64,000 bases of DNA, taken from the IMG/VR virus record IMGVR_UViG_3300044640_001495, positions 124,001 through 188,000 of that record, one strand, 5' to 3'. Of this stretch, positions 34,664 to 53,502 are shown in pieces. Made by a program: the position numbers and the translations under genes. Source of the DNA: a virus. Position 1 is the stretch's first letter. Every line of letters starts with the position of its first letter. The notes under the pieces are model-generated. The model was given only the letters and a program-made list of their open reading frames with translations, ran no database searches and was not told the origin of the DNA.

Positions 34664-34686
34664 AACGGTTGAAACAAAAAGAATAC

Positions 34687-34716
34687 TTTTTTAGGAATTT
34701 CGAATCACCTAAAAAA
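34687..34716 (+). other. AT-rich perfect hairpin ahead of the radical-SAM operon
   Basis: TTTTTTAGG (34687-34695) pairs exactly with CCTAAAAAA (34708-34716) around a 12-nt loop. On the + strand no T-run follows, so it is not a standard terminator for the upstream gene; on the - strand it would be followed by T. It sits in the 122-base gap before the first radical-SAM gene. A TATAAT at 34760-34765 lies downstream, but no convincing -35 box goes with it. Confidence 0.45.
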
Positions 34717-34785
34717 ATTAATTGATGATATTAGTCTCACTCAATTTACGTGACCAAGTTATAATAAGATGAAAACAATTATCAT

Positions 34786-36120
34786 ATGAGTGAACACGAA
34801 AAATTTCAAAAAGTTATTCCAATCCTAAATGCTGTTAGTCCTAGTTTTTGTTTAGCCAAATGGTATCAACTAACATTATATCTCCAAAACGGTTTTAACC
34901 ATAGTTGCCACCATCCATCACCTCATAAGATTCCATTAGACGAGTTAGAGCAAAATCACAAGGCTCTACATAATACTAATTTTAAAAAAGAACAAATGCA
35001 AAAAATGCTCGATGGCGTTAGACCCGCCGAGTGTGACTATTGTTGGACCGCTGAAGATAACGGGCATGTAAGTGATAGAAGTTATAAAAGTGCAACATCT
35101 TGGGCCTATCCTCACATTGGCGAAGTTGTTAAAAATAAAACAGCTGATGTTGAACCTACATACGTTGAAATTAGTTTTAGCAATGTGTGTAATTTTAAAT
35201 GCGCTTATTGTAGTCCAGATCTTAGTAGTCAATGGTATGAAGAAATAGACAAGCACGGTGGGTATCCTACTAGTCAAAACTTTAATGGGTTTGATTGGTT
35301 TAAACAAGTTGGAAAGATGCCTATCAAGCATAGCGATCACAATCCTTATGTCGATGCGTTTTGGAAATGGTGGCCGGAACTTTATCCTAAATTAAACACG
35401 CTAAGACTAACAGGCGGGGAACCACTGTTGAGCAAAGATGTCTGGCGTATGTTAGATGCTATAGAAGCTGATCCCAAACCAGAGTTTTGCTTTGCTATTA
35501 ACACTAACTTAGGAATCCCAGACGAGTTAATTAATCGTATGATTATAAAGCTCAATAGTATTTCTAGTAAAATTAAAGAAGTACAAATCTTTACCAGCGG
35601 AGAAGCAGTTGGCGCTCCTGCTGAATATATTAGATATGGATTAGATTATTCAGCATGGACTAAAAACTTAGAAAAAGTTTTAAATAATACCAATAACATT
35701 GTTGCTGTAATGACTACTGTTAATTTAACTAGCATTACAACCTATTGTAGTTTTATACGATACTTGTTAGACTTGCGTAAGCATTATAATAAGAATGCCA
35801 CATTTAATAAAGTTCAGTTTATGACTAACTTTTTACGGTATCCAGAATTTCTGTCATTACCTATTTTAGACTCTGCTAGCAAACAAAGATTTACAAAAGA
35901 AGTAGCAAAATTAATTTTAGAAAGACCTGACTTATCAGAAAGTGAAATAGATCAGTTGCGTCGTATGATTGACTATATGAACAGCACTGATATCAAGGAA
36001 TTACAATTAAGAAAAGACTTTGCATCTTTTATCACTGAATATGATATTAGACGGGGAACCAACTTTAATAAAACATTCCCTGAACTTACAGAATTTTATC
36101 AACTATGTCAACAAATGTAA
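34786..36120 (+). CDS. Radical-SAM protein 1 with N-terminal SPASM/twitch-like domain
   Basis: 444 residues. The radical-SAM cluster motif CNFKCAYC is at Cys135, Cys139, Cys142, followed by LRLTGGEPLL (SAM-binding GGEP). Before it, residues 20-90 carry FCLAKW (Cys22), SCHHP (Cys41) and CDYCW (Cys83, Cys86), the pattern of an auxiliary Fe-S (SPASM/twitch) domain that normally sits at the C-terminus. Such enzymes modify peptides or small molecules by radical chemistry. No substrate peptide gene was recognised beside it. It starts an operon of four related genes. Confidence 0.85.
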   Translation: MSEHEKFQKVIPILNAVSPSFCLAKWYQLTLYLQNGFNHSCHHPSPHKIPLDELEQNHKALHNTNFKKEQMQKMLDGVRPAECDYCWTAEDNGHVSDRSYKSATSWAYPHIGEVVKNKTADVEPTYVEISFSNVCNFKCAYCSPDLSSQWYEEIDKHGGYPTSQNFNGFDWFKQVGKMPIKHSDHNPYVDAFWKWWPELYPKLNTLRLTGGEPLLSKDVWRMLDAIEADPKPEFCFAINTNLGIPDELINRMIIKLNSISSKIKEVQIFTSGEAVGAPAEYIRYGLDYSAWTKNLEKVLNNTNNIVAVMTTVNLTSITTYCSFIRYLLDLRKHYNKNATFNKVQFMTNFLRYPEFLSLPILDSASKQRFTKEVAKLILERPDLSESEIDQLRRMIDYMNSTDIKELQLRKDFASFITEYDIRRGTNFNKTFPELTEFYQLCQQM

Positions 36121-37433
36121 AACGCACAATAGAAATTATTAACGAAATAAGTCCTAGCTTTTGTGCCGCAAAGTGGTACAATGCTACTATATGGTTAGGC
36201 AACGGACGAACAGCCAGCTGTCATTTGCCACCTGCTCATACTATACCCATAGCTGAAATCAAACGAAACCCGTCTGCTCTACACAATACCGTCTTTAAGA
36301 AGGACCGCCGATTAGAAATGCTAATAGGTGAGCGATGTGACGAGTGCGCTTATTGCTGGACTGTTGAGGATAATGCAGCACCTGATGTATATAGTGATCG
36401 AGTTTATAAGACTAGGATTTATGAAGAAGAAGAAATACTTCAGCTGGCTAAATTAGATCCTGGATCAGATGTTGACCCAAAAACTTTAGAGATCAGTTTT
36501 GATAATTTATGTAATTTAAGTTGTAGTTATTGTAATGCAGAGTTCAGTACTACTTGGGCTAGTGATATTAAGGTTAATGGTCCGTACATTGAATTAAAAA
36601 CATCAGGTGGTGGTGCGTTTCAAAATGCCGGGGAACATGCGTTACCTTACGGGATTAAAAATGAAAACAATCCCTACATCGAAGCGTTCTTTACATGGTT
36701 TCATGCTAGCCTTAAAAATAATTTACAAGAACTAAGAATCACCGGGGGTGAGCCTACTCGTAGTCCATCATTTTGGAAATTGTTAGACGAATGCGAAGGT
36801 ACAAATTTTGATTTTGCTGTTAACAGTAATCTTATAATGGATCAAGTAAAGTTAAATCAACTTATTAGTGCTAGTAAAAAGTTTAAGAAATTTGATCTAT
36901 ATACCAGCGGTGAAGGCTACGGGGCCCACGGAGAGTTTATTCGTCATGGGTTAGACTATACATTATGGCGTAACAACTTAATACAATTTGCCAAAGAAGG
37001 TCAATATAATATGATACATGTTATGATGACTATTAGTGCTCTAAGCATTTGGACCGTAACAGAGTTTATGACAGATATGTTAGAGCTACGTAAACAATTT
37101 GGTGGCCATCAGTTCCATATGAGTCTTAATTTAGTACGCTTTCCTAGTTTTCAAAACTTAAACGTATTACCTGAACACTTAAAACAAACACAAGCGGCCA
37201 AGATTGAAACTTGGCTAAGTAGTGTTGTTGGGCTAAGTCCTGCCGAAGCTAATCAAATAGAGAGAATAGCTGTGTATCTTCGAAACGTTGATCGTAGTCA
37301 AGAAGATACCGACAGCCAAAACAATAAGGTGCATGATTTAAAAAGTTTTACACAACAATATGCTGATAGAAAAAATATCACATTAGCTAGGGTATTCCCA
37401 ACAGAATTTATAGAATGGTTTAACACAATATGA
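36105..37433 (+). CDS. Radical-SAM protein 2 with N-terminal SPASM/twitch-like domain
   Basis: 442 residues and a clear paralogue of the preceding gene (shared SPSFCxAKW, SCHxP, ALHNTxFKK, CxYCWTxED). Cluster motif CNLSCSYC at Cys136, Cys140, Cys143; LRITGGEPTR gives the SAM site. Auxiliary cysteines are Cys20, Cys39, Cys78, Cys81 and Cys84. The start overlaps gene 1 by 16 bases. Because genes 1 and 2 share residues along their whole length, they arose by duplication and may act on similar substrates or as a complex. Confidence 0.85.
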   Translation: MSTNVKRTIEIINEISPSFCAAKWYNATIWLGNGRTASCHLPPAHTIPIAEIKRNPSALHNTVFKKDRRLEMLIGERCDECAYCWTVEDNAAPDVYSDRVYKTRIYEEEEILQLAKLDPGSDVDPKTLEISFDNLCNLSCSYCNAEFSTTWASDIKVNGPYIELKTSGGGAFQNAGEHALPYGIKNENNPYIEAFFTWFHASLKNNLQELRITGGEPTRSPSFWKLLDECEGTNFDFAVNSNLIMDQVKLNQLISASKKFKKFDLYTSGEGYGAHGEFIRHGLDYTLWRNNLIQFAKEGQYNMIHVMMTISALSIWTVTEFMTDMLELRKQFGGHQFHMSLNLVRFPSFQNLNVLPEHLKQTQAAKIETWLSSVVGLSPAEANQIERIAVYLRNVDRSQEDTDSQNNKVHDLKSFTQQYADRKNITLARVFPTEFIEWFNTI

Positions 37434-38644
37434 GCGAAGACAAATTTTGTATAGTGCCATGGATACATCTTAATACAGAACCTAACGGTCGTGTTAAGCC
37501 TTGTTGTGCGTATCTTGGACAAGATTTTGGAAACTTAAAAGATACTACACTAGAAGAAATATGGAATAACGAACATACTAAATCTATGCGTAGAAGCTTT
37601 TTAGAAAATAAAATTCCAGAAGGATGTCTAACCTGTACTAAAAAAGAAGACAGCGGTGGTGTAAGCTATAGAATGGCGGTTACTGAAAGATTCAGCCATC
37701 ATATTGAAAAAGCTAAAAGTAACACATTGCCCGACGGTACTTATGAAACGTTTGAAATAATTTTTTGGGATTTTAGATTCAGCAATATCTGTAACTTTAA
37801 ATGTCGTATGTGCGGACATGGTAGTAGTAGTTCTTGGTTTGACGACTTTACACCTGAAGAAAAGAAAACTAAGGTAAAGTTCCTTGACAGTGCGTATTAT
37901 GGAACTAATTTAATGAAATATGTTGATCAGTTTATTGACGATGTTGAAGAAATCTATTTTGCTGGCGGTGAACCATTACTTATGGCCGAACACTATCAGA
38001 TACTAGATAAGCTAATTGCCAAAGAACGATATGATGTATTTTTGCGTTACAACACCAATATGAGTACTATCAAGTATAAAGATTACGACCTGGTTGATAT
38101 CTGGAAACGATTCAAAGATGTTAGAATTTTTGCAAGTATTGACGGCATTGATGAAAATGCAGAGTACAGTAGATCTGGAACTGACTGGCCTAGAGTAGAA
38201 GAAAACTTAGTCCGTTTATCACAATCAAATGTTGATTATGTAGTATCAACTACTATAAACATTCTCACAGTTTTTAATTTTACTAAACTAGTTGATCGAC
38301 TAATAGAATTAAAAATGTCGACTAGGAAAGTACTAGTAAGTCACGTTAACTGGCCTAAGCACTATATGTCGTCAATTTTGCCCGAAGAGCTAAAAGATCA
38401 AATACGTTTACAACTGGATCAACATTTAGAAAAAATAACGCTGGCCGTAACCGAAGAAGAAAGTCGATGGTTAGCTAACCTATACAACGAAATTAAATTT
38501 TATTTAATCTCAACAACATCAACAGAAGAAACCACGACCTTACAACAGCGATTTAAAAGAGATACTATTAAGTTAGACCGTATTAGAAAAGAAGATATAA
38601 GAACGGCTGTACCAGAATTAGCCGAATGGTTTGATACATTATGA
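37430..38644 (+). CDS. Radical-SAM protein 3 with N-terminal SPASM/twitch-like domain
   Basis: 404 residues. FCIVPWIHLNTEPNG (6-20), PCC (Cys25, Cys26) and GCLTC (Cys66, Cys69) form the N-terminal auxiliary site; GNLKDTTLEEIWN is a typical SPASM linker. The radical-SAM motif CNFKCRMC is at Cys121, Cys125, Cys128, then FAGGEPLL. ATGA overlap with the previous gene. It is a more distant relative of genes 1 and 2 and closer in layout to gene 4. Confidence 0.87.
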   Translation: MSEDKFCIVPWIHLNTEPNGRVKPCCAYLGQDFGNLKDTTLEEIWNNEHTKSMRRSFLENKIPEGCLTCTKKEDSGGVSYRMAVTERFSHHIEKAKSNTLPDGTYETFEIIFWDFRFSNICNFKCRMCGHGSSSSWFDDFTPEEKKTKVKFLDSAYYGTNLMKYVDQFIDDVEEIYFAGGEPLLMAEHYQILDKLIAKERYDVFLRYNTNMSTIKYKDYDLVDIWKRFKDVRIFASIDGIDENAEYSRSGTDWPRVEENLVRLSQSNVDYVVSTTINILTVFNFTKLVDRLIELKMSTRKVLVSHVNWPKHYMSSILPEELKDQIRLQLDQHLEKITLAVTEEESRWLANLYNEIKFYLISTTSTEETTTLQQRFKRDTIKLDRIRKEDIRTAVPELAEWFDTL

Positions 38645-39849
38645 GTGATAAATTTATTTGTGATTTTCCCTGGATTCATTTAAGTGTGTTTCCACAGGGC
38701 AACTGTACTGTATGCTGTGTGGCTAAACATTCGGGTAAGGGCAACGGACATAGTTGGAACAGAGTCAGTGAGGATAAAACTAAAACTATAACAGTTATGA
38801 ATAGTTCTATACCAGAGATTGTTAACTGCGATAATTATAAAACTATTAGACTAGATATGTTAGCAGGCAAGGTACCGACTGCATGTGAGGGGTGCCATCA
38901 AATTGAACAGGCTGGTGGAAAAAGTAAACGACAGCAAGAAACTACTCGAAATTTAGATCATGCGGCATTGACCTCAGTTGACGGTTCTATCAAGACAGAT
39001 CTTCGTCACATTGAATTACGATTAGGAAATTTTTGTAATTTAAAATGTCGAAGCTGTAACGCAGACTCTAGTACAAGCTGGATTCAAGATTACTATAAAT
39101 TAAAAGATACAGTCAAGTTAGCTAGTGGTTATCATTGGATTAAAAGTAATCCTGATTTTAGTTTTGATTGGGTAGACGATGAATCTTTTTACAACAGATT
39201 AACAGAATTTGCTCCTAATCTAGAACAAATACATATAAGTGGTGGCGAACCATTCCTTGTACCTACTCACTTTAAACTATTAGAAAAATTAGTGCGAGAT
39301 GGTAAAACAGATATCGCTATTCACTACCATACAAATTTAAATTATAAATGGGATAAAATTACTCCAGCATTGGATCTATTGACTAAATTTAAAGAAGTAC
39401 ATATTAGTTTCAGCATTGATGATGTTGGAGAGCGCAACACTTATATTAGAAGTTTAAGCGATTGGGATTTAACCATTAGTAACTTAAAATTATTTTTAAA
39501 TAATTACAAATTCATTTATCGTGTAACTCAAACTGTCAGCGTCTATAATTTTATGTATGTTGAAGAATTAGAAAGGTATTTAGCCAACAATAAAATACGT
39601 ATTAGAGTAGGTTTAAATCATGTTCAGAGCCCAGACTACTTATCAGCTAATATATTATCTAAACAAATGCGACAAGATAAAATTAATTCACTATACGGTA
39701 TTATTGATCGACGCAATTGGGAAGATCTTTATGGCCATTACTATACTCCAAAAGACAACGGACAGTGGGAATACTTTAAATATTTTACAGAAAAAATTGA
39801 TACTGTGCGTAACGAAGATTTAAATAGTATTTTTCCAAAACTAGCATGA
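38641..39849 (+). CDS. Radical-SAM protein 4 with N-terminal SPASM/twitch-like domain
   Basis: 402 residues. ICDFPWIHLSVFPQG (6-20), TVCC (Cys25, Cys26) and ACEGC (Cys82, Cys85) make the auxiliary site; two further cysteines are at 22 and 63. The cluster motif CNLKCRSC is at Cys132, Cys136, Cys139, followed by ISGGEPFL. ATGA overlaps join it to gene 3 and to the following unknown gene. Four such genes in line in one phage is unusual. Confidence 0.87.
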   Translation: MSDKFICDFPWIHLSVFPQGNCTVCCVAKHSGKGNGHSWNRVSEDKTKTITVMNSSIPEIVNCDNYKTIRLDMLAGKVPTACEGCHQIEQAGGKSKRQQETTRNLDHAALTSVDGSIKTDLRHIELRLGNFCNLKCRSCNADSSTSWIQDYYKLKDTVKLASGYHWIKSNPDFSFDWVDDESFYNRLTEFAPNLEQIHISGGEPFLVPTHFKLLEKLVRDGKTDIAIHYHTNLNYKWDKITPALDLLTKFKEVHISFSIDDVGERNTYIRSLSDWDLTISNLKLFLNNYKFIYRVTQTVSVYNFMYVEELERYLANNKIRIRVGLNHVQSPDYLSANILSKQMRQDKINSLYGIIDRRNWEDLYGHYYTPKDNGQWEYFKYFTEKIDTVRNEDLNSIFPKLA

Positions 39850-40646
39850 AATTTATTTTTTTAAAATCGGGCGACTATTTAGAATTAGAACCCAACAACA
39901 CTCCTATAGCATCTGTTTGGTTTGAAAGCATTTTTTCTAAAAAAATGAATATGAGTTATTTTGCTAGAGATACTTCGTTTATAACTCGTTCTAACGAGAC
40001 TATTAATAATCTAAATACTGCAATTGATATAGTTAATAAGTTTGCTGTAGAAAAAAATCTACCTCAAATCATGTTTGATAAAATTGTTGGTATTGATCAA
40101 CAATGGCTCAATGCGTCACATAAAAAATGGGTATTGCACACTGACAGATTAAAGAATATAGTTAATGGCGACGATACAAAACAAAACTATCCCGGCTTTG
40201 TGAAATCTTGGCAAAATATCAATTTATACATTCATTCTTTAGAATATTATTATTCTGTTTATTTTACTAATACAAAAGGAGCATATTTAGAAAATATTGA
40301 TATTAAAATACAGCCGGAAGATTGCGAATACTCACAACACGATCTAATTTTAAGATTTGACGATTTAGGAAAACATCAGTATGACCAATGGATTACTGGA
40401 AGCGCAGTTGATGAAGAAACTAGCAATTACAAAACAATTTCGGCTAGATTTGAATATGCATTTAATCCGCAATTAAATAAAGGAATTCTTCCTAATCCAG
40501 CATATATAGAGTGGTGTAATCAAAATAATTTACAAGTTATGCCACCGTGGATTATTTTAGGAAACTTTAAAAAGAATAAATGGGAAATTAAACAACTCAT
40601 ACATCAAAATTTATCTCGAGGATTAGAAGTAGGATTTGAATTATGA
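39846..40646 (+). CDS. Unknown protein of the radical-SAM operon
   Basis: 266 residues, soluble, mixed alpha/beta, starting MKFIFLKSGDYLEL. Segments such as DLILRFDDLGKHQYDQW (about 170-186) and PAYIEWCNQ (about 220-228) look structured, but no family is recognised. It overlaps radical-SAM gene 4 and the SGNH gene by ATGA and is therefore part of the same translation unit; it could be a carrier or substrate-binding partner. Confidence 0.65.
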   Translation: MKFIFLKSGDYLELEPNNTPIASVWFESIFSKKMNMSYFARDTSFITRSNETINNLNTAIDIVNKFAVEKNLPQIMFDKIVGIDQQWLNASHKKWVLHTDRLKNIVNGDDTKQNYPGFVKSWQNINLYIHSLEYYYSVYFTNTKGAYLENIDIKIQPEDCEYSQHDLILRFDDLGKHQYDQWITGSAVDEETSNYKTISARFEYAFNPQLNKGILPNPAYIEWCNQNNLQVMPPWIILGNFKKNKWEIKQLIHQNLSRGLEVGFEL

Positions 40647-41506
40647 AAATTTATGTAAATGGAGATAGTTTTACTGCTGGCGACGGATTGTCTGATCCAG
40701 AAGTTTTTCCAGATTTGTATCCAGGGCATCATTCTTGCGACATAGAATTTGACGTAGCATGGTGTAATAAAAGGCATGCAATGCTAGATAAAAATCTTGA
40801 TTTACACAATCACTGGCAAATTAATAATAAGAAATATGTGTGGTCTACAATATTAGGAGAGCTAGTTAATACTATGTTAGTTAATGACAGCGTTACTGTA
40901 GTTAATGGTGCCATTGGCGGATCATGTATGACAGGCATATCAACTAGAACTATTGCCTATCTTGAATCATTAAGAAGTCGAGCAGACTTGCCAGATCATG
41001 TTTTCATAGGCTTAACAAGCATTGGAAGATTAGGTTGGTATCACGAAGATACACAAGATATTGGTAAAATTTTTAATTGGGTTAAATCGACTATTCCAGG
41101 ATTTCATTATCGAGGACATGAAAGTAAACATAAAAAATTGTTTGAAACTATTTGGACAACACTCAGTGATGAAGAACTGCTTATTAATTATCTAAAAGAA
41201 TGTTTACAAATTAAAAATTATGTCAAGAGAAGAATTGGACGAGATCCTATTTTCTTAAACACTGTGGGTGAATTTTGGCAATACAAAGAAATAGTCAATA
41301 ACTCTAAAAATCAATGGCTTCGAATGCTTTGGTTTGATTTATTAGAATTTGATAAGATTAACAATCGATGGTTCAATAAAGGAGCGTTTGAACAAATGAC
41401 TGCGTGTGGACACGTACTTCCGCCTGGTCATGCTGAATATGCTAGAGATTTAGCAAGAGAACATTTTGGATGGGGTAAAAATCCGGATGATAGGGATGCC
41501 AATTAA
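40643..41506 (+). CDS. SGNH-hydrolase-like protein of the radical-SAM operon
   Basis: 287 residues. VNGDSFTAGDGL (4-15) is the GDS block with nucleophile Ser; NGAIGGSCMTGI (about 88-99) fits the Gly block and IGLTSIGRLGW the third block. Near the C-terminus CGHVLPPGHAEYARDLA offers the catalytic His. Esterase or acyltransferase chemistry on a glycan or lipid is the usual role. It ends the + strand run; 17 bases separate its stop from that of the converging gene. Confidence 0.78.
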   Translation: MKIYVNGDSFTAGDGLSDPEVFPDLYPGHHSCDIEFDVAWCNKRHAMLDKNLDLHNHWQINNKKYVWSTILGELVNTMLVNDSVTVVNGAIGGSCMTGISTRTIAYLESLRSRADLPDHVFIGLTSIGRLGWYHEDTQDIGKIFNWVKSTIPGFHYRGHESKHKKLFETIWTTLSDEELLINYLKECLQIKNYVKRRIGRDPIFLNTVGEFWQYKEIVNNSKNQWLRMLWFDLLEFDKINNRWFNKGAFEQMTACGHVLPPGHAEYARDLAREHFGWGKNPDDRDAN

Positions 41507-41523
41507 GTATCTAGTATAGATTA

Positions 41524-43509
41524 TTATTTTTTTACTAAGGATTGAAATGTATTAAATTGCTTTTGCAACCATTCAAAATCGTTAATTTTTCTTAACTGAT
41601 CGGCATCAGCAATATTCAATAATCCGTACTGTTTTCCAGCTCGAGCTCCTGCTATACTATATTCTCCATAAAGTTTATCAGATCCAATACTACACCAAGT
41701 AATTAATCGATCTTCAGTTTCTTCTTGATATCCAGAATCAACAGGACGGCTGGCTAATTTTACACACTCTCTAAACGCAGATTTCCAAGTATTAAACGGA
41801 TCGGTATTAAAAACTGTTAGATTACTAACTTCTTTTATAACTTTAAATTTTTTGCTTATTGCCATAGTCATGTCAACACTAGACATGTCCATATTAATAG
41901 TTAAGTTTTTAGGCAATAATTTAACACCGCCATAGCCGTATGTTAATCCGTTGATAGGATTTTTGCTTAACCAAACATGAACAATATCTGTATCGTGTTT
42001 AGGTAGTAGTAGGTCAAATTGAAAATCATCTTCTATTATTGCATCACCGTCTACTACCCAAAACATTGGAGTTGTTGCTAATTTTGCGGCTGCAATGTGT
42101 GCTTGGTGAATACCTTTTACGCCGTGTACACGTTTGGCTCTCGGAAATTGATCAATTAATTTAGCAAAATTTTCATCTGCATTAGGTTCGTTATAAGATA
42201 TAAACACAATATCGTATAATTTTAATTTACTTGCCACAAGGTCATATTCTTTTTTTTCAATCAAATATCTATATTCAACTTCTCTTGCAGAAATAAGTCT
42301 TTTCTTCGATAATAACATTATACCGTTGTACTTAATTTCTTCAACATCAATATTTTTAAAGACGTGATTTATACTAAGCTCATACTTATTTTGGTATGGA
42401 AATTGAAGATCAAATTTAAAATCTGGCGCAGGTTCAACTTCCGGAGGAATCGCCCAAAACATATCTGTATCAGCTGTGTTAAGAGCATGTTCGTAATCAC
42501 TAAACGTATCGATTACAAATTTGTCGTACGGTTTATATTTGCTGGCCACTAGATCGTGTTCTTTTTTATCTATAAAAAATCTATGTTCAATCTCTTTCTT
42601 AGATACTGGCTTATTTGTAGAAAATAACACAACACCGTTAACGAACGATTCCTGATCGTTAGATATATTTTTAAACACGTGATTTTCGTTTCGATCATAG
42701 GAATTATGGTGACTAAAATAAGTTTCAAAAATTTGATCATTAATTATTTCAATATTTGGCCATACTCCCCAAAACATTGTTAAAGGTGAATTTTCTAATG
42801 CAGATCGATATTCTTCATAATTGTTAATAATAAAAATAGGATATGTTTTAGGTTTACTAGCTACTATATCAATTTCTTTTTTGTTAACATAAAATCTATG
42901 ATCAAATTCTTTTTTACTAATTTCTTTGTATTTTGAAAACAACGCTATTCCGTCAAAAAATTCTCCGTTTTTAAATACATGAGTTATGTTTCGATGAAAT
43001 GCATCGTATGTTGGAACATAATAATCAAAAAGAAAATTTTCGGCTACAACAACATCATCCCATACTGCCCAGAACATCGCTGTTGAAGATTGCTCTTTTG
43101 CATTTAAATAATCGTTGTATGTTTTTATATTATGAATTTCAAATTTCTTAGGAGTTGATGCAATTACATCCATCTCCTTTTTGTTCATAAAAAATCTATG
43201 ATCAAATTCTTTTTGTGTAGTATTGGCTGTTTTAGGAAATAGATTTATTCCGTCAAATGTTGTTCCGTTTAACCAAACGTGGGTATATTCTTCGTCCCAC
43301 TTAGATACTCTGTATTCAAAATTAAAATCGTCAGCTACAACAACATCATCCCATACGACCCAAAAGAATTTTGTAAATGCTTTCTTTTTAATGTCATCGA
43401 ACGATTTTACATTATCAATTTTTTGAGAAGATGGAAATTTAGAACGAAATTGTTTCCAATTTTGTTCATCAATAATATTTTTACTTACATAAAAAATATC
43501 ATAGACCAT
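41524..43509 (-). CDS. Glycosyltransferase-like protein with four tandem degenerate repeats
   Basis: 661 residues. Four repeats of about 100 residues fill 1-430, each with (M)FWxVWDDVVV, then HVFKNG, DGIxLFxK, KEFDHRFxxxKKE and DxVAS; the FW pairs are at 49, 146, 246 and 351. Residues 430-661 are a GT-A-like domain related to the neighbouring gene (DIVFISYNEPNAD, RVHGVKG, FWVVDGDA with DxD at 487-489, YGYGGVKL). The repeats look like worn copies of the DxD part. It is probably a sugar-adding enzyme plus binding modules. Confidence 0.75.
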   Translation of the reverse strand: MVYDIFYVSKNIIDEQNWKQFRSKFPSSQKIDNVKSFDDIKKKAFTKFFWVVWDDVVVADDFNFEYRVSKWDEEYTHVWLNGTTFDGINLFPKTANTTQKEFDHRFFMNKKEMDVIASTPKKFEIHNIKTYNDYLNAKEQSSTAMFWAVWDDVVVAENFLFDYYVPTYDAFHRNITHVFKNGEFFDGIALFSKYKEISKKEFDHRFYVNKKEIDIVASKPKTYPIFIINNYEEYRSALENSPLTMFWGVWPNIEIINDQIFETYFSHHNSYDRNENHVFKNISNDQESFVNGVVLFSTNKPVSKKEIEHRFFIDKKEHDLVASKYKPYDKFVIDTFSDYEHALNTADTDMFWAIPPEVEPAPDFKFDLQFPYQNKYELSINHVFKNIDVEEIKYNGIMLLSKKRLISAREVEYRYLIEKKEYDLVASKLKLYDIVFISYNEPNADENFAKLIDQFPRAKRVHGVKGIHQAHIAAAKLATTPMFWVVDGDAIIEDDFQFDLLLPKHDTDIVHVWLSKNPINGLTYGYGGVKLLPKNLTINMDMSSVDMTMAISKKFKVIKEVSNLTVFNTDPFNTWKSAFRECVKLASRPVDSGYQEETEDRLITWCSIGSDKLYGEYSIAGARAGKQYGLLNIADADQLRKINDFEWLQKQFNTFQSLVKK

Positions 43510-44410
43510 CAGTGGTCCTCATATATGTATTTGTTAATTTAATAGTTTCTTCGTACAAATCTAAAGTATATTTGCTCTGTTGACTATCTAGATAGGGATA
43601 ATCAAAACCTAGTTCTAATTTAATTTTTTCACCTAATGATTTAATTTCATCATCTAGACCATCACCGCCTACTTCTTCAAATGGGCGGCCATATTGATTC
43701 CAAATACCTTTAAGGATTTCAAAGTCTCGAACCTCTACATAATTCCAGTCGGTACAGTTTGCTAACCAAGTGCCTAATCTAGCACCATATATAGCATAAA
43801 GTCCGTTTTCTTCATGAGCACCAACTGTTGACCACATACGTAATCTATGCAAATTGTGCCACCAAACACGTTCGCTAATCTCTTGTGGTGACACTTTAAC
43901 TCCATCGAGTAAGGTCATTTTAACGCCTTCACGAAATCCTGCTCTCCATGCTTGAAAAGGACTTCCGGTAATATCAGTATCACTATAACATTCTTTAAAT
44001 TGACGATACCCATCTTCCCAACAAAAGTCTACTTGAGCGCGATCGCTTTCACTAGCTTCATGGGTTTTCATATTGAGAATAAAATCTCGTTTCCATATTT
44101 TAAGCCCGCCATTACCGTAGAGTAAGCCATTAAGTTTGTTTTTTCCTAGCCAACTATATACCTGTATCTTAGGATTACTTGTATCGATGTCTAGATTAAA
44201 AAATTTAGGATTAACTATATTATCAGCGTCAACCGTAATAACCCATTCAGTTTCACTTAACTCAGCTGCTGCCTTATGTGCAGCATCACTACCCTTCACC
44301 CCGTGAACTCGTTTAGCCCAAGGAAGTTTATTACATAAATCAGCATAATGCTTATCTGCATTGGGTTCGTCATAACTTAAAAATACAATGTCAAGTTCTA
44401 TTGTTTTCAT
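43499..44410 (-). CDS. GT-A-like glycosyltransferase
   Basis: 303 residues, a paralogue of the C-terminal part of the downstream repeat protein. LDIVFLSYDEPNAD (6-19), RVHGVKGSDAAHKAA (34-48) and WVITVDADN (56-64, metal-binding DxD at 61-63) define a GT-A nucleotide-sugar site, and LYGNGGLKIWKR a conserved acceptor-side loop. Overlaps the next gene by 11 bases and the upstream gene by ATGA on the - strand. Confidence 0.8.
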   Translation of the reverse strand: MKTIELDIVFLSYDEPNADKHYADLCNKLPWAKRVHGVKGSDAAHKAAAELSETEWVITVDADNIVNPKFFNLDIDTSNPKIQVYSWLGKNKLNGLLYGNGGLKIWKRDFILNMKTHEASESDRAQVDFCWEDGYRQFKECYSDTDITGSPFQAWRAGFREGVKMTLLDGVKVSPQEISERVWWHNLHRLRMWSTVGAHEENGLYAIYGARLGTWLANCTDWNYVEVRDFEILKGIWNQYGRPFEEVGGDGLDDEIKSLGEKIKLELGFDYPYLDSQQSKYTLDLYEETIKLTNTYMRTTDGL

Positions 44411-45000
44411 ATTGTTTCAAATATATATTTGTCAAAAATTCGCCTTGTATAAACACTAAATCTATTTGGCAAATCTAATGTAAATAATTTTGTATTTTCT
44501 GTAATGTCGCCTGCCCTAATGCTTAACATATGAAGGAGGACATTGGGGTCGTTGTAATCAGTTACTAAAAAAATCATTTCAGTTGCACCGTCCCAAATAA
44601 TATTATTTGAGTATTTGTCGCTCATTGAAAATATTAATGTACTATTTTTTGTATCATGTGAAATTGTGATATCAGGATCTTGCATATTTGACCACTTTTT
44701 ATCTATTATTCTATGCAAGATGTCATCGATCTTTATTAGACTATGGGTGGAAAATTTGTTTAATTTAACTAATTTCTTAGTTGGTAAATCAACCCTATAA
44801 GAAAATAGATTTTCCTCTCCTGTAGAAACTGCTGTGGCAATTTCTTCATCAATTTTTATATTATTTGTATTATCAAATACCGCATGAGAAGGATATATTC
44901 CAATTAAAGATCCGTCATCTTTAAATGTTGCATAGTATTCGACGGTTTGATTGACTGGTAATTTAATCCACTCGTCAAAGTCCATTAATTCTTGTTCCAT
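44407..45000 (-). CDS. Unknown protein within the glycosyltransferase operon
   Basis: 197 residues, acidic, beta-rich, no signal peptide. It begins MEQELMDFDEWIKLPVNQTVEYYA and contains YATFKDDGSLIGIYPSHAVFDN. No catalytic motif is seen. Tight overlaps with glycosyltransferase genes on both sides suggest a partner or acceptor protein. Confidence 0.6.
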   Translation of the reverse strand: MEQELMDFDEWIKLPVNQTVEYYATFKDDGSLIGIYPSHAVFDNTNNIKIDEEIATAVSTGEENLFSYRVDLPTKKLVKLNKFSTHSLIKIDDILHRIIDKKWSNMQDPDITISHDTKNSTLIFSMSDKYSNNIIWDGATEMIFLVTDYNDPNVLLHMLSIRAGDITENTKLFTLDLPNRFSVYTRRIFDKYIFETI

Positions 45001-45827
45001 GCAATCTCCTCTAACATACTAACTATTTCGTCATTAACTAGATCTTTTTCAACATAATGCACAATATTATATTGCTGATAATTTCCAATTTTTAAATTTC
45101 CCTGTGTATTAAAATAAAAACCTGCATGTTCAGTGACCCTTTCGGCAGTCCAGGGCCAATTTTGAATCATCGGTTTCATATGTACTATATTAGGAAACGC
45201 TAAATCATAACTTATAATATCACTTATATCTAAAATCTTTGCGCTTAGAGCGAATGCTTCATCTGTTCCAACAACTTTTGGTTTATGTTTAGTAAGATAT
45301 AAATTACTAAACTCTAAAGGGTTTTTTATAATATATCTACCTAAATTGAAAAATTCTGTTGCAAGCTCGGATCCTTGTTTAAAAAAAGTAAACATGGAAT
45401 ATAAATTAGGAAGATTGTTTTTTGTAAATGTTTTTCTATAAAAATCATTTATGATTGTTTCACCTCTATAGGTTAAGGCCTTTGGAGGAATGTATAATTC
45501 ACAATTTTCAATAAAGTAATCAATCCAATGGCTATGATCCCTAAGAAAAAGCATGTCTGCATCAAGGCATACTGTATTTTCAAAAGGAGATAGTTGATCC
45601 ATCCAGCTACGGCCATCCCAATGTGTTTCTTTATCCCAGGTAATTACATGATCAAAAACCCAAGGACTTTTTAAATTATTAACTAGCTGAGGTTTATCGA
45701 TTACTAAAGCAACTTTATTGTATCCTGGTTTCTGAGTATTTTTAATACTTAATGCAAGAGCATAGGCCAGTTTAAGATAGTCTATATTATCATTCGAAGC
45801 AACAAAAATTAAGTAACCAAAGTTCAT
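44985..45827 (-). CDS. GT8-like glycosyltransferase
   Basis: 280 residues. The layout is that of GT-A enzymes similar to family 8: YLIFVASNDNIDYLKLAYALALSI at the N-terminus, then NTVCLDADMLFLRD (84-97) with the DxD metal site at 89-91, and KVVGTDEAFALS later. Sugar and acceptor unknown. It overlaps both neighbours, and its upstream neighbour is a second enzyme of similar layout. Confidence 0.78.
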   Translation of the reverse strand: MNFGYLIFVASNDNIDYLKLAYALALSIKNTQKPGYNKVALVIDKPQLVNNLKSPWVFDHVITWDKETHWDGRSWMDQLSPFENTVCLDADMLFLRDHSHWIDYFIENCELYIPPKALTYRGETIINDFYRKTFTKNNLPNLYSMFTFFKQGSELATEFFNLGRYIIKNPLEFSNLYLTKHKPKVVGTDEAFALSAKILDISDIISYDLAFPNIVHMKPMIQNWPWTAERVTEHAGFYFNTQGNLKIGNYQQYNIVHYVEKDLVNDEIVSMLEEIAWNKN

Positions 45828-46684
45828 ATTAACTCCAGTAGTTTTTCTTTATTTCTAATAATACTTTGTTTGTTCATAACGTGAACATCAGAACCTTGTG
45901 TAGTTGCAGCCCAAAAATCTCCGCAATTAAGTGGTTTGTCAATTAGGAACGTTAGCCGATCTCCATTTACATCATGTAAAATATCTTTATCAAATACTGT
46001 TAGAATAGGAGGTAATGTATAAACAAACTCAGTTTCAAACCCGTTCATGATATGTTTGGCAACGCTAAATGAAATGTCGTTTCGATATTGCCTTGGGTCA
46101 AATCTAAATAGGTCGGCATAATATCTATAATTGTCTTTAATATAATCAACTAATTTAAAAAAGAATCTACTTTCTTCGTTTTTAGTAAACATTACAGTAG
46201 TGGCCCAAAACATATGAACTCCGGTTTCACTTACACGTTGATCTAATATACCGCTGCGGTCACCTGTTATATCATTCATAGAATGTCCTAACATCACACT
46301 ACTATCTGTGTTCCAGTACTCATTTAGTTTGTTAGAAAAGATTAAATAATCACTGTCAACTAACAGGGTTTGATCGTAAGGACTTAAATCCCAAACTGAA
46401 AATCTATTTGAATTTACAAAAGGAATTGTCTGGCTGTAAAAACCATCATGAAGTTTTCTTGTATTTTTTGTTCTAGGCTTTTCAATTTCAATAATCTTAT
46501 CAAAAATAGATTCGGCTCTAGCATACATCTCTGATTCTTTTAACCAAGCAATTGTCCATTTGTCTGTTATTAAACTAACTGGTAATCCCAAATGTTTTTT
46601 TGCTAGGCCGCCAGAAATTATACCCATTACACCATAATCTACTTCTGGGCCATTATGAGCAAAAATTAATACGCCTTTAGTCAT
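45824..46684 (-). CDS. GT8-like glycosyltransferase
   Basis: 286 residues. VLIFAHNGPEVDYGVMGIISG opens the nucleotide-binding part; YDQTLLVDSDYLIF (103-116) has DxD at 110-112; residues 116-205 include the acceptor-side loop MFWATTVMFTKN. Related in design to the next gene downstream. Both probably decorate the same acceptor, such as a virion protein or host surface sugar. Confidence 0.78.
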   Translation of the reverse strand: MTKGVLIFAHNGPEVDYGVMGIISGGLAKKHLGLPVSLITDKWTIAWLKESEMYARAESIFDKIIEIEKPRTKNTRKLHDGFYSQTIPFVNSNRFSVWDLSPYDQTLLVDSDYLIFSNKLNEYWNTDSSVMLGHSMNDITGDRSGILDQRVSETGVHMFWATTVMFTKNEESRFFFKLVDYIKDNYRYYADLFRFDPRQYRNDISFSVAKHIMNGFETEFVYTLPPILTVFDKDILHDVNGDRLTFLIDKPLNCGDFWAATTQGSDVHVMNKQSIIRNKEKLLELI

Positions 46685-48009: not shown

Positions 48010-49764
48010 TTATAATACCAATGCTTCAACTAGTTTGCGATCTAGGTCTGTGTTTGATTCTAATGCAATAGCAAACACATCGTTGTCCTGCGGTTCGGCT
48101 GCCACGGCATTGCCATTATTTGCAGCTACAAGACGTTGACCTTTTTTCACTGCTCCTGTAACATACACAGGCACACGCCCTTTGAGAGCAATATATGTTC
48201 CGCCTTCAAGATCTTTGTTCATCATAAATCCAGGATTGGCCGATACCACTCCTACAGCTCGGTCGCCATACTGTGCAGCGGTGACTTCTTTGTCTCCGCC
48301 TACTGCTACCACTGTGCCTACTTCATATTCTTTATCTGCTAGATATTTTTCAGCAAGATCTGCATATTGCGCTGCGGTTGCTGTGCCGTCGAAGGTATTG
48401 GCCAATAAATTTCCTGAACCATCTCTAGCTGCAATTGTGTTGGCTGTTTTTGTAGTCTTAGCAGACCTGTAATCGGGATCTGTGTCTACTGCTGCATCAT
48501 TTATCCTAGTTCTATCTGATTTATCTACAACCCCAATAAATCTAGTAGCAGTAATATTACCACTGCCATCTCTCAAAGCCACAGAAGTTGCCACTGCGCC
48601 AAGTTCTCCAACTAGACTGTTCAAAGTCAAAGCGTTGGTGGCTGTACCTGTGACTGAACCTATCACGTTGCCTGTGAGTGTTCCCGAGAAGCTGCCTGAG
48701 AATATTTTTGTAACCGCGGTATAGGCCACAGAATTGTCGTCAGCAAGTATATTACCTTTGTGTACACCTGTGGTATTTCCGGTTACATTACCAGTTAACG
48801 CACCTGTAAATGTGGTTGAATGCACGTTGGCCCATTTGGAAACAGCAGAACCAAGAGTAAAGAAATTGTCTGTACCTGGAATCATGCCGGTTGCGGTTAT
48901 AATGCCAACATTGCGAAGATCACTATCCGATACTCTTATTCTCAAGGTTATAGTGTTGCCTAATCTGTTTTCAATAATAGGTTCATCGCCGTTTTCAACA
49001 CGGATTCTTAAATCATTTTGATCGCCTACTGTAAGACCGGCATCGGCGAAAGCAATTGCATTGGTAAAGGATACCTCACCCAGTCTAACATATTCACTAG
49101 CAGGAAAGCCGCCTAATCTCAACGCATTACTTGCTGATCCCCAGAAATAATGATCTGTGGTTGTTACTCCGGTAGTTCCGTTAGTGTTAACTAAGTTGAC
49201 ACCTTTTTTGATCACCGAAAATCCTGTTATAGGATTTAAAACGCTGTTTAAGGTAAATGCATCTTTGCTGACGATTGATATTACATCACCGCCAGATTGA
49301 AATTTTACTATGGTATGATTGTTGTTGAGAGTGTCTTTGACTACCTGTGCTTGTACTGCTGATGCACCTAGATCTGGCAAGGTTTCAGGGCCAATTAATA
49401 CAAATTCAGTGCCAGTATAGGCATACAGTTGTTCGGCTCCGGTATCAAACCAAAAATCTCCGGCCTGCAATCCGCTAGGAGGAGTAGGTCCTATCTCTGC
49501 GCCGCTGGCTGTTCTAAATTTTGTGCCGTCGTAAAATCGTAGTTTTTTTAGGCCACTGTCATACCAAATTTGACCAGTTACTCTTTTTGGAGGGGCTGAT
49601 GTATTGGCAAAGTTTTCCAGCAAATGTAGGAAATTCTCGTTCTGTACTTCGCCGTAGCCAGCGTAATTTTTACCTACAAAACGCAAATCAGTGGTGGTAT
49701 CAATGGTACCGTCGTCGACAGAGACTAAGAACGTTCCATTAAATTTGTCTACTTGATATGCCAT
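48010..49764 (-). CDS. Tail-fibre-like protein 1 (paralogous family)
   Basis: 584 residues. The first 195 are shared with the next three genes (MAYxIxxF, KNYxGYGExxNENFLxLLENFA, GQIWYD, LYxYxGTxFxLIGP, SKDAFT, GFSVIKxG). The middle is a fibre-like beta region with TG/TN repeats (GALTGNVTGNTTGVH). The end (about 465-584; AAQYADLAEKYLADKEYEVGTVV) is a C-terminal domain shared with paralogue 2 and resembling self-assembly or chaperone-type fibre ends. Expected in the distal tail and receptor binding. Confidence 0.8.
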   Translation of the reverse strand: MAYQVDKFNGTFLVSVDDGTIDTTTDLRFVGKNYAGYGEVQNENFLHLLENFANTSAPPKRVTGQIWYDSGLKKLRFYDGTKFRTASGAEIGPTPPSGLQAGDFWFDTGAEQLYAYTGTEFVLIGPETLPDLGASAVQAQVVKDTLNNNHTIVKFQSGGDVISIVSKDAFTLNSVLNPITGFSVIKKGVNLVNTNGTTGVTTTDHYFWGSASNALRLGGFPASEYVRLGEVSFTNAIAFADAGLTVGDQNDLRIRVENGDEPIIENRLGNTITLRIRVSDSDLRNVGIITATGMIPGTDNFFTLGSAVSKWANVHSTTFTGALTGNVTGNTTGVHKGNILADDNSVAYTAVTKIFSGSFSGTLTGNVIGSVTGTATNALTLNSLVGELGAVATSVALRDGSGNITATRFIGVVDKSDRTRINDAAVDTDPDYRSAKTTKTANTIAARDGSGNLLANTFDGTATAAQYADLAEKYLADKEYEVGTVVAVGGDKEVTAAQYGDRAVGVVSANPGFMMNKDLEGGTYIALKGRVPVYVTGAVKKGQRLVAANNGNAVAAEPQDNDVFAIALESNTDLDRKLVEALVL

Positions 49765-49786
49765 TGATCAACTCCGTTGTAACTAT

Positions 49787-49794
49787 TATTTATC
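49787..49794 (-). promoter_or_regulatory. Late promoter octamer
   Basis: Reads GATAAATA on the - strand, 22 bases before the start codon at 49764, with CGGAGTT as ribosome-binding site. Confidence 0.6.
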
Positions 49795-49808
49795 GTAAAT
49801 ACACCCAT

Positions 49809-51626
49809 TTAAACTCTGCCCACTGCTACTTCTATAACACCACTTACACCATCAAAATCAACTAGAGCTTTACCTATAATTGTACCTATTTGAGGATTAA
49901 TTGCTTTTCTAGCATATCCTTCGCCTGCACTCATTAGCATATCACCTTTAGATATTTTACCGCGGACCTTACAAGGGGCTCTACCCTGTAATGCAATGGC
50001 AACTACATAGTTACCACTACATTCGCTGTTCATTAGGTATGCAGGATCTGTTGAGACAATACCCGCTAGTCTATTTGTGCCGTCTTCTGCTAGAGTTACT
50101 TCAAACTCACCACCAAATTCAAGTACTGTACCTGGCTCATAATCTTGATCTGCTACATATTTTTCAGCAAGATCTGCGTATTGTGCAGCAGTGGCTGTAC
50201 CTACAAAAAAGTTGGCATGCACGTTGTTCCATTTTGCAGTGGATATTCCTAGATCGGTAGTAGCAGTATTTACTGGGATCATAGCTGGAGCATTGAGTCC
50301 CCCTAACGCCAATGCGGTAGCTGCATTTACCATAGAGATTGCAGCCGTACTTGACGGTTGCGTTGGATCAAGAATTGTGAAATGTATTCCAGAATTACGT
50401 GAATGTAATGTTGGTATTGTGGATGCGTCTAAATATATTCTCAAAGGCGCCACACTGGTGCTAGGTCCTCCGAGTGTAATGCCGGTTGCGCCAGCGACAT
50501 CTAGAGAAGATAGAGTTCCTACATTAGTAAGGTCGGAATCTACTATGTTGGTTGCCAATTGAGTGCCAGTCAATGTGTTGCCGTCTGCAGGTACTGTGAT
50601 ATTTGCACTACCGTCAAACAGTACTGTGTTGATTGTTCTTGCTGTTTGTAATTTTGTAGCTGTGAATGCATTACCGGATAAAGTGGCCCCTATAAATTCG
50701 TTGGCTGATACTATGTTAAAAGTACTAGTTCCACTGGCAGTGGTCACGTTACCTGAGACATTGCCAAGTAGATTAGCAGTGATTGTTCCTGCTGAAAAAT
50801 CTCCGGCACTATCTCTAGCCACAATTTTACCTATGACATTACTGGGGCTAGCATCCACACTCCAAGTAGTGGCTGTTGATCCATTAAAATTTGCACCTGT
50901 AAGATACGTGCCTCTTGATAATGTGTTTGTGGTGTTGGATGTTATGGTTATGTCTGTTTGGCCATCGAAATACACCCCGTTAATGAGTCTACCAGGATTC
51001 AATTTACTGGCAGATTCTGCATTTCCCACCAGTGAGCCTATTACTGGCCTAGCTGTTGAGATATTGGTTCCTGCCTGCAGGATTGAAAATCCAGGTATAG
51101 CGTTGGCATCATCAATGGTAAAGGCATCATCGACACATACCGCCAACACTGTGCCATCTACTACCACCTTGATAGCTGCATGTTCAGTGCCATTGCTATC
51201 CATAATTTTTTCAGCTAGAACTTTGGTTGTATCAAAACCTTCAATAGCTTCAGGTCCTATCAATTTCCAAAATCCAGAATCATATACAAAAAGTTGATCT
51301 GTGATATCTTTGTACCAAATGCCGCCGTCGAATCCTTCTGGTTCAGTGTCACTAATAACAGCAGATCCCACAGGAGTCCAGGCTGTACCATTATAAACAT
51401 TCAGTGCGCCAACATCGGTGTTATACCATGTTTGTCCTGTGATTGGTCTAGACGGTGGATTTTCATTGGCAAAATTTTCAAGCAAAAACAAAAAATTTTC
51501 ATTTTGTGTTTCACCATAGCCAGTGTAGTTTCTGCCAAGCAATCCTAGACTGGTTGAGGTATCTAGTGTGCCATCTTCTAGCACTACTAATTGCTGACCG
51601 CTAAATCTGTTTATGATATATGCCAT
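49809..51626 (-). CDS. Tail-fibre-like protein 2 (paralogous family)
   Basis: 605 residues. It has the shared N-terminal module (about 1-200; GRNYTGYGETQNENFLFLLENFA, GQTWYN, KLIGPEAIEG) and the C-terminal AAQYADLAEKYVADQDYEPGTVLEFGG domain also found in paralogue 1. The central part differs, with SLVGNAESASKLNPGR and many Thr/Ala/Asn repeats. Homologous ends and divergent centre suggest recombination or duplication of fibre modules. Preceded by CGGAGCG. Confidence 0.8.
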   Translation of the reverse strand: MAYIINRFSGQQLVVLEDGTLDTSTSLGLLGRNYTGYGETQNENFLFLLENFANENPPSRPITGQTWYNTDVGALNVYNGTAWTPVGSAVISDTEPEGFDGGIWYKDITDQLFVYDSGFWKLIGPEAIEGFDTTKVLAEKIMDSNGTEHAAIKVVVDGTVLAVCVDDAFTIDDANAIPGFSILQAGTNISTARPVIGSLVGNAESASKLNPGRLINGVYFDGQTDITITSNTTNTLSRGTYLTGANFNGSTATTWSVDASPSNVIGKIVARDSAGDFSAGTITANLLGNVSGNVTTASGTSTFNIVSANEFIGATLSGNAFTATKLQTARTINTVLFDGSANITVPADGNTLTGTQLATNIVDSDLTNVGTLSSLDVAGATGITLGGPSTSVAPLRIYLDASTIPTLHSRNSGIHFTILDPTQPSSTAAISMVNAATALALGGLNAPAMIPVNTATTDLGISTAKWNNVHANFFVGTATAAQYADLAEKYVADQDYEPGTVLEFGGEFEVTLAEDGTNRLAGIVSTDPAYLMNSECSGNYVVAIALQGRAPCKVRGKISKGDMLMSAGEGYARKAINPQIGTIIGKALVDFDGVSGVIEVAVGRV

Positions 51627-51642
51627 TTATCGCTCCGTTACA

Positions 51643-51649
51643 TATTTAA
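51643..51649 (-). promoter_or_regulatory. Weak late-promoter-like box
   Basis: Reads TTAAATA on the - strand, 16 bases before the start codon at 51626. Only the AAATA core matches the octamer. Confidence 0.3.
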
Positions 51650-51652
51650 CCA

Positions 51653-53491
51653 TTAAGATACAAATACCCATGCTCCAGAAATAATCTGGAATGTTTTAAC
51701 TATCCTTGAAACCACCAAGCCAGGCGCTGCCACTGTAGCAGTGGTAAAACTAACGTTGTTTATACCAAACGCTGTGCCTGTTGGAGTCACAAATTCAGTT
51801 GAAGAAGTTGATAACAATGGATTAATATCAAGATTGGTAGTACTGTTGATCAACAGTGAACACAGCACTCTAGCAATGGTGCCATTGTTGTATTCTGCTA
51901 CCGGTGATATTTGTTCTAATAGTGTGGCAATACCTGCATTAGAAATACCGTCGGATATGTCTAGGCTGAGCACAATACTTCTAGCTTTGATGGTATTATC
52001 AACATAATTTTTTGTGGCAGCATCTTGTGCAGAAGTTGGGTCTGCTACTGATTTGATCTTTTTGCTGCCTAGGTTAAGGCCACCTGTGCCGTCAATAAGC
52101 AATGACAGATCAGTGTTTGATGTTGTTACTTGTATAGCTGCATCATTGAGATATAGACTATCCACAGATAATTGTGTTTGTACACCGAAGCTGGTTACAC
52201 CTGGAATGCTGGTAATTCCAGGACCCAGTGATGTACCCGACAACACAGTCACTCCGTCAATTTTAAATTCTTTGCCTGTGGCTAAATTTATGTGTTCTGA
52301 ACTAGTCCATGCAGCACTGGCCAATGCAGGTAGAGCATCATTGTAGCCTTCGGCAGTTGCAGTACCGCTGGTAGCCTGTGCTGCTTGACCTACATCATGC
52401 CATAAAAATACATGGCTAGCAGCTCCTTGTAGTACCACTCCGCCGCTAGCCGCATTTGCATCTGTGGGCACAATACCGGTTTGTTTGGCCAACACTATGT
52501 TTTTGTCTTCAATAGTCACAGTACTGGTATTCACTGTGACTACATCTCCATTCACAGTTAGGTCTCCCTGCACTGTGAGACTTCCACCTATTTGTACTTC
52601 ACTAGTAGGAAAGCCATCATATAAACTAATTCGACGAGCATCAGCTTCTATGGTGACTGCTGATTCTGCGATAACATCTCGTCTAACGTTGAAAGTCATC
52701 TGCTTGTTTGAAGCAATGTTGGCAATGATTAAATTACCGTCTTGAACTTGAAATTGTCCTTGGTTGGCATCTCCAATAATCAAACCTAAATTTGATGAAA
52801 TAATAATCTGTCCGTTAACAATATTACTTGTATCGTTTCTAACATATAGGCTTGCAGGTTGTCCTCCAAGTTTTTCACTGTTTGTCACAGTGACGTTGAA
52901 TTTAAGATTAGTCAATGTTCCTGCGCTGAATCCAGGTATGATGCTGCCACTGAATCCATCAATGGGAAGTTTGGGAGTGAATGCGTCTTTGGAAAAAATA
53001 CCCAGCAATATACCGTTGGCATAGAGATATACCACCACTCGATTTTGATTTAGTGAGTCTAGAATATTCACTACCTTTAAACCACTAATACCTTGAGTTA
53101 CAGAATAATCTGGCCCTAATAATATTGTGTTTGTGCCGTCAAAGAAATACAACTGCTTAGCCACATCATTGAACCATAGATCTCCCACACCCAGATTCAA
53201 GGGTTGTTGACTGGATATTGTAGCAGAGCTTACTGGTACAAAGCCGGTTCCGCTGTAGACTTTTAATTTTAATTCACTTACATCGAACCAAATCTGTCCT
53301 CTAATAGGACTTGTAGGTTGGCTAGAGCTGGAAAAATTTTCCAACAGTTTGACAAAATTTTCATTAATTGATTCACCAAAGCCACTGTAGTTTTTTCCTA
53401 CCAGTGTAAGATCTGTTGATAACTCATCTATCTGACCATCTGCCACTGTGGCTAAAATTGTTCCGTCAGTTTTGTTAATTGTATATGCCAT
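51653..53491 (-). CDS. Tail-fibre-like protein 3 (paralogous family)
   Basis: 612 residues. Shared N-terminal module (KNYSGFGESINENFVKLLENFS, GQIWFD, LYFFDGTNTILLGP). The middle has long beta stretches with SLTVQGDLTVNGDVVTVNTSTVTIEDKNI in the order often seen in phage fibre shafts (about 310-340). QDAATKNYVDN (about 490-500) is a trimeric fibre coiled-coil motif. The C-terminal 100 residues differ from the other paralogues and would form the tip. Confidence 0.8.
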   Translation of the reverse strand: MAYTINKTDGTILATVADGQIDELSTDLTLVGKNYSGFGESINENFVKLLENFSSSSQPTSPIRGQIWFDVSELKLKVYSGTGFVPVSSATISSQQPLNLGVGDLWFNDVAKQLYFFDGTNTILLGPDYSVTQGISGLKVVNILDSLNQNRVVVYLYANGILLGIFSKDAFTPKLPIDGFSGSIIPGFSAGTLTNLKFNVTVTNSEKLGGQPASLYVRNDTSNIVNGQIIISSNLGLIIGDANQGQFQVQDGNLIIANIASNKQMTFNVRRDVIAESAVTIEADARRISLYDGFPTSEVQIGGSLTVQGDLTVNGDVVTVNTSTVTIEDKNIVLAKQTGIVPTDANAASGGVVLQGAASHVFLWHDVGQAAQATSGTATAEGYNDALPALASAAWTSSEHINLATGKEFKIDGVTVLSGTSLGPGITSIPGVTSFGVQTQLSVDSLYLNDAAIQVTTSNTDLSLLIDGTGGLNLGSKKIKSVADPTSAQDAATKNYVDNTIKARSIVLSLDISDGISNAGIATLLEQISPVAEYNNGTIARVLCSLLINSTTNLDINPLLSTSSTEFVTPTGTAFGINNVSFTTATVAAPGLVVSRIVKTFQIISGAWVFVS

Positions 53492-53502
53492 TTGTTTTTA
53501 CC

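Follow-up and report, generated by a model that had tools for sequence, protein, structure and literature searches.

The window analyzed here is a 64,000-nucleotide stretch of DNA, positions 124001 to 188000 of a 353,123-bp virus record (IMG/VR record IMGVR_UViG_3300044640_001495). Six consecutive genes in it, here called R1 to R4, X5, and S6, form a compact series (Table 1). The first four are predicted to encode radical S-adenosylmethionine (radical-SAM) enzymes with an N-terminal twitch (N-twitch) domain, and the sixth an SGNH/GDSL-like protein. Every junction is overlapping, R1 and R2 by 16 nucleotides (nt) and the remaining genes by 4 nt each. An earlier note, made from the letters of this DNA, had described four overlapping genes with CxxxCxxC and GGEP motifs at 34786 to 39849, coupled to a further protein and an SGNH hydrolase. 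Both points were borne out: each of the four plus-strand open reading frames (ORFs) encodes the two motifs, and the 4-nt overlaps run on into X5 and S6. The cassette places four N-twitch radical-SAM enzymes in the tail and host-recognition region of a jumbo phage.

The note had also paired R1 with R2 and R3 with R4 and called the first pair recent duplicates. The pairs are real, but the dating is wrong; R1 and R2 share 35.6% identity and R3 and R4 share 27.2%. A recent R1/R2 duplication was rejected on the strength of the 36% identity. Both pairs are old, and each gene has its own line of orthologs in related viruses.

Table 1. Positions of the six-gene unit, its borders, and neighboring genes in the window
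Feature	Position	Strand	Details
R1, N-terminal-twitch radical-SAM enzyme	34786..36120	+	444 amino acids (aa); auxiliary Cys 22/41/83/86, core C135xxxC139xxC142, GGEP; NF033640 344.5 bits
R2, N-terminal-twitch radical-SAM enzyme, old R1 paralog	36105..37433	+	442 aa; NF033640 272.9 bits
R3, N-terminal-twitch radical-SAM enzyme	37430..38644	+	404 aa; auxiliary Cys 7/25/66/69, extra C26; NF033640 382.7 bits
R4, N-terminal-twitch radical-SAM enzyme, old R3 paralog	38641..39849	+	402 aa; NF033640 326.3 bits
X5, cassette-only protein, fold not assigned	39846..40646	+	Homolog distribution
S6, SGNH/GDSL-like protein	40643..41506	+	Motif conservation and profile-profile match to DUF6071-type relatives
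Left boundary of six-gene unit	34664..34785	none	Place where relatives show the unit inverted
Right boundary of six-gene unit	41507..41523	none	Place where relatives show the unit inverted
d661, repeat protein with C-terminal DxD domain related to d303	41524..43509	-	Weak Glycos_transf_2 match, E 0.1
d303, DxD protein of the same family as the d661 C terminus	43499..44410	-	D61 and D63 invariant in 20 homologs
d280 and d286, paralogous GT8-like proteins	44985..46684	-	SPYDxTLLxDxDxL motif; weak glycogenin profile matches
Tail-fiber genes, convergent operon (584, 605, 612, and 690 aa)	48010..55575	-	PHROG tail fiber; Pfam Collar / Peptidase_G2

Domain order of R1 to R4

The NCBIfam model NF033640, N_Twi_rSAM ("twitch domain-containing radical SAM protein"), matched R1 to R4 end to end. 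The scores were 272.9 to 382.7 bits, the curated cut-off being 170 bits, and the alignments ran from profile position 1 or 2 to position 394 to 398 of 398. The cysteines listed in the earlier note ahead of the core of R1 and R3 are real. In R1, C22, C41, C83, C86, C135, C139, C142, and G210-P213 are invariant in 58 homologs sharing 37 to 71% identity, and in R3, C7, C25, C26, C66, and C69 together with C121/C125/C128 are invariant in 10 diverse homologs. The core motif and a preceding C..C..CxxC pattern are both present in 211 of the 212 family members of 380 to 540 aa from virus loci.

Pfam Radical_SAM was matched in all 58 R1 homologs at E ≤ 0.1 and in R3 at E 6.6e-14. Pfam SPASM was found at residues 7 to 70 of R3 (E 4.7e-12) and residues 7 to 86 of R4 (E 1.4e-4), both over the cut-off. 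The R1-type N terminus gave no Pfam SPASM match; R1-type and R3-type N termini are homologous by profile-profile comparison (probability 95.9, E 5e-9), with their cysteines in register. When an R3/R4-type profile was compared with the PDB, positions 5 to 72 aligned to residues 187 to 258 of BtrN (2-deoxy-scyllo-inosamine dehydrogenase), which constitute its C-terminal twitch domain (E 2e-4). Because the N terminus of the profile aligns to a C-terminal twitch domain, the domain order of R1 to R4 is permuted, with the twitch domain ahead of the radical-SAM core rather than behind it as in BtrN. The earlier note had read the N termini as a SPASM/twitch domain and had suggested a profile search of this region and of the core. 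That reading held for all four proteins, through the full-length NF033640 matches, the SPASM matches at the R3 and R4 N termini, the BtrN alignment, and the R1-R3 N-terminal match.

Structure prediction, another check that the note had suggested, gave a high-confidence AlphaFold model of R1, with a mean predicted local distance difference test (pLDDT) score of 95.5 and a predicted template modeling (pTM) score of 0.92. Its full-length fold matches were exclusively viral "radical SAM" proteins, the best with a template modeling (TM) score of 0.83. Matches in the PDB (SkfB, NifB, SuiB, viperin, QueE, and BlsE) were partial, which is what a sequential aligner would be expected to give for a permuted protein. 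Each of R1 to R4 combines a SAM-binding [4Fe-4S] motif with a permuted twitch domain that has four conserved cysteines. In R1, whose fold is modeled with high confidence, these cysteines are candidate ligands of a putative auxiliary [4Fe-4S] cluster besides the SAM cluster.

Inheritance and inversion of the six-gene unit

A survey for the same six-gene order, proposed in the earlier note, found the genes conserved together: the order R1-R2-R3-R4-X5-S6 is kept in related jumbo-phage contigs. The unit is flanked by a rightward block, which runs from the QueE-like and exonuclease genes to a 102-aa gene, and by a leftward block of tail fibers, d286, d280, d303, and d661. Contigs related to L042 and L044 carry the six genes turned around with respect to the two flanks. 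Whichever way the unit faces, it reads out of the block that it adjoins, and in some relatives the inverted form joins the convergent operon of tail fibers, GT8-like proteins, and DxD proteins. These comparisons show that R1 to R4, X5, and S6 are inherited and inverted as one unit.

Trees of the flanks set the window, L036, and L046, which have one orientation, apart from L042, L044, L051, and L054, which have the other. In distant viral relatives, the radical-SAM genes lie downstream of the tail-fiber/d303 block on the same strand, so the window orientation looks derived. We found no inverted repeat joining the two borders of the unit (34664-34785 and 41507-41523). Since such a repeat is absent and orientation follows lineage, we set aside a site-specific invertible switch and regard the change as an inversion in the course of evolution, not as demonstrated phase variation.

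The same slot can hold other contents. In L051 to L056, which have the L042 orientation, it contains an R1 homolog, an 817-aa fusion, a radical-SAM protein of a different type (319 aa), and an N-twitch enzyme of 411 aa. The 817-aa protein (L053:10001-12454) joins two N-twitch radical-SAM enzymes in a head-to-tail fusion, and NF033640 matches it in two stretches with 656 bits. For the backbone, the closest annotated relatives by exonuclease are the Pseudomonas phages PA5oct and Paride of the Arenbergviridae (53%). Paride has the QueE, hypothetical, structural, and exonuclease genes in the same order and no N-twitch cassette annotated at the locus, so the cassette is accessory. In a separate observation, R2 is broken into two frames at about residues 258 to 267 in L038 (L038:4027-5327), possibly by an assembly frameshift.

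X5 follows the cassette closely: all 17 of its matches in viral contigs fall in cassette-bearing contigs, and a hidden Markov model check agrees. Its structure model was poor (pLDDT 52). In S6, G7-D8-S9 and H257/H263 are invariant, and the Asp of the DxxH motif is not clear. No Pfam family matched S6, SGNH/GDSL included; profile-profile comparison linked it to DUF6071-type relatives (E 4.5e-15).

Genomic neighborhoods of the N-twitch family

The N-twitch family is abundant in aquatic viruses, with at least 570 confirmed matches, and we counted its neighbors over 70 non-redundant virus loci. A sugar-type gene is a neighbor in 59 of these loci, or 32 when only Pfam-supported families are counted, and 34 loci contain two or more radical-SAM genes. 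The gene immediately upstream of the first radical-SAM gene belongs to the d303/d661 DxD family in 28 loci and encodes a Glyco_transf_7 plus laminin-G protein in 21. Further neighbors include UDPG/GDP-Man dehydrogenase, nucleoside diphosphate (NDP)-sugar epimerase, carbamoyltransferase, GT2-type, methyltransferase, and SGNH-like genes. DUF6071-type genes, to which S6 is related, are frequent, and relatives often have a downstream 440-aa protein (cluster 5). The islands span tail fibers to tail sheath, that of L095 ending at the tail sheath gene. In Vibrio phage K566, three N-twitch enzymes are interleaved with GT8 and GT4-like genes.

In the window itself, the unit abuts d661. Motif and position suggest that d661 may be a glycosyltransferase, and d303 is sugar-transferase-like by its motif. 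The d661 protein contains repeated units of about 100 aa (MFWxVWxDV...), and its gene differs by 252 nt between the near-identical phages L036 and L039, consistent with repeat gain or loss. Farther along, the tail-fiber protein at 48010-49764 has a C-terminal match to Peptidase_G2 (intramolecular chaperone autocleavage).

Seven contigs from bacterial metagenome-assembled genomes (L142, L148, L149, L152, L156, L159, and L171; Pelagibacter, Rickettsiales, Rhodobacteraceae, and others) carry a phage tail block together with N-twitch cassettes and are therefore probably viral contamination of bins. Two other regions with radical-SAM genes were noted by eye. The first, G000:C1 76,500-84,300 (L013:525-8218), has a 307-aa radical-SAM protein, a TauD-like oxygenase, two fatty-acid-desaturase-like genes, and a 478-aa radical-SAM protein with a B12-binding-like N terminus. 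In the second, G000:C1 331,459-333,668 (L023:7459-9668), a 320-aa radical-SAM gene overlaps a YqgE-like gene and adjoins a D-Ala-D-Ala-carboxypeptidase-like gene.

Candidate substrates and published relatives

The earlier note had left the substrate open among peptide, sugar, and base. The neighborhoods favor, without proving, modification of a glycan or of the virion surface. Our best explanation, to which we give about even odds, is that R1 to R4 use radical chemistry to modify a glycan or glycoprotein on the surface of the virion or the host. BtrN and other twitch enzymes use the twitch cluster as an electron acceptor or donor, and BtrN works on an aminocyclitol, a sugar-like ring; its twitch domain is the one that aligns to N termini of the R1-R4 type. 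In this reading, a glycan would be assembled by the sugar transferases of the convergent operon, either on part of the virion (a tail fiber or an adhesin) or at the surface of the host. R1 to R4 would abstract hydrogen atoms from it via the 5'-deoxyadenosyl radical, and the twitch cluster would take or relay an electron, resulting in dehydrogenation, epimerization, or deoxygenation as for BtrN-type enzymes. S6 might add or remove an acyl group. The outcome would be a modified surface sugar and, with it, altered receptor binding or a block on rival phages.

Several observations count against a glycan substrate. Gene proximity is no proof of a shared pathway, and in the window the cassette lies on the strand opposite to the sugar-type genes. 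The PDB profile matches of d280 and d286 are all to glycogenin (GT8) and are weak (E 0.011 to 0.035). We rejected d303 and d661 as proven glycosyltransferases because Pfam, PDB, and profile comparison all failed to support that assignment. Neighborhoods of bacterial homologs show no single consistent neighbor or theme. Most characterized SPASM/twitch enzymes modify peptides, and the maturases SkfB and SuiB, which act on ribosomally synthesized and post-translationally modified peptides (RiPPs), are among the best structural matches of the R1 core. To our knowledge, no substrate, precursor, or product of the cassette has been described.

The peptide chemistry of most SPASM/twitch enzymes and the SkfB and SuiB matches would suit a different role, in which R1 to R4 mature a virion protein such as a tail fiber or adhesin after its translation and introduce epimerized residues or thioether or carbon-carbon crosslinks directly into the polypeptide. 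The adjacent operon holds tail-fiber genes, and serial paralogs would suit repeated sites, d661 itself being a repeat protein. However, the inverted six-gene unit contains no leader-like or short precursor gene: we found no extra coding-strand ORF of at least 80 aa in the unit of the window and none of at least 60 aa in that of L043, shorter ORFs not being listed. Sugar-nucleotide and glycosyltransferase genes also recur near the family, and a pure peptide route needs none. We therefore regard maturation of a virion protein as somewhat unlikely.

A further proposal detaches the cassette from surface chemistry and makes it an auxiliary metabolic or host-takeover module that serves metabolism at low oxygen. 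Such a role was put forward for the interchangeable modules of five radical-SAM genes in Campylobacter phages CP220 and CPt10 (PMC2853527), and the varied neighbors of bacterial homologs are compatible with it; the strong, repeated siting in tail and host-recognition islands makes it quite improbable here. It is very doubtful that R1 to R4 produce or change a hypermodified base of DNA or a nucleotide, as the nearby QueE-like radical-SAM gene (29483-30346; phrog_2076) could suggest. A QueE-linked DNA modification was set aside, because that gene belongs to the Arenbergviridae backbone and stands beside the exonuclease in Paride without an annotated N-twitch cassette at the locus. The cassette itself keeps company with tail and sugar genes, not with DNA-modification genes.

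The earlier note had suggested that a serial radical-SAM pathway in a phage would be a new system; the genes are indeed conserved together, but the term is too strong, since the architecture is that of a named family and phage modules with multiple radical-SAM genes have been published (PMC2853527, PMC5332604, PMC7029224). In NF033640, the same N-terminal twitch domain precedes the core, with no structural difference from R1 to R4. That model describes single proteins, whereas here four paralogs occupy a single operon together with X5 and S6, and a fusion of two occurs in relatives. The Campylobacter phages reported in 2010 have 11 to 12 radical-SAM proteins (PMC2853527). Their CP220/CPt10 module resembles R1 to R4 as an exchangeable phage cassette of several serial radical-SAM genes, but its partner is a glycine amidinotransferase (PMC2853527), not X5 and an SGNH-like gene, and the enzymes differ, R1 giving only partial fold matches to Campylobacter phage radical-SAM proteins. 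A marine T4-like genome encodes 12 radical-SAM proteins (PMC5332604). A 2020 report on pelagimyophage host-recognition clusters describes tail fibers, glycosyltransferases, and radical-SAM cassettes in one variable region, a mix like the one here, in SAR11 myophages (PMC7029224). The MoaA/NifB/PqqE family genes of KVP40-type Vibrio phages have the same architecture and glycosyltransferase-like neighbors, but they are distant homologs (20 to 26% identity), occur as one to three scattered genes, and, in the case of KVP40.0261, score 128 bits with NF033640, under the cut-off. No function was assigned to the N-twitch family in the papers found in the open-license literature searched.

The family name (NCBI) and the phage modules with several radical-SAM genes were thus already known, and R1 to R4 are further members. 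What is added here is the evidence for a permuted twitch domain through homology to BtrN, the fixed unit of four paralogs with X5 and S6, its inversion as a block, the fusion of two such enzymes, the GT8-like partners, and the counts over 70 loci. A more specific and rather speculative version, which we consider unlikely as a whole, is a serial radical pathway: the four N-twitch enzymes would successively edit a glycan linked to the tail fiber or the host surface into a sugar absent from the host, and the cassette, swapped and inverted as a block, would change receptor specificity or superinfection exclusion. The six-gene unit is compact and small enough to be expressed whole. The fixed place of the N-twitch family beside tail-fiber and sugar genes makes these phage enzymes the subject of a testable claim, that radical chemistry may act on the surface glycans of phages or their hosts.

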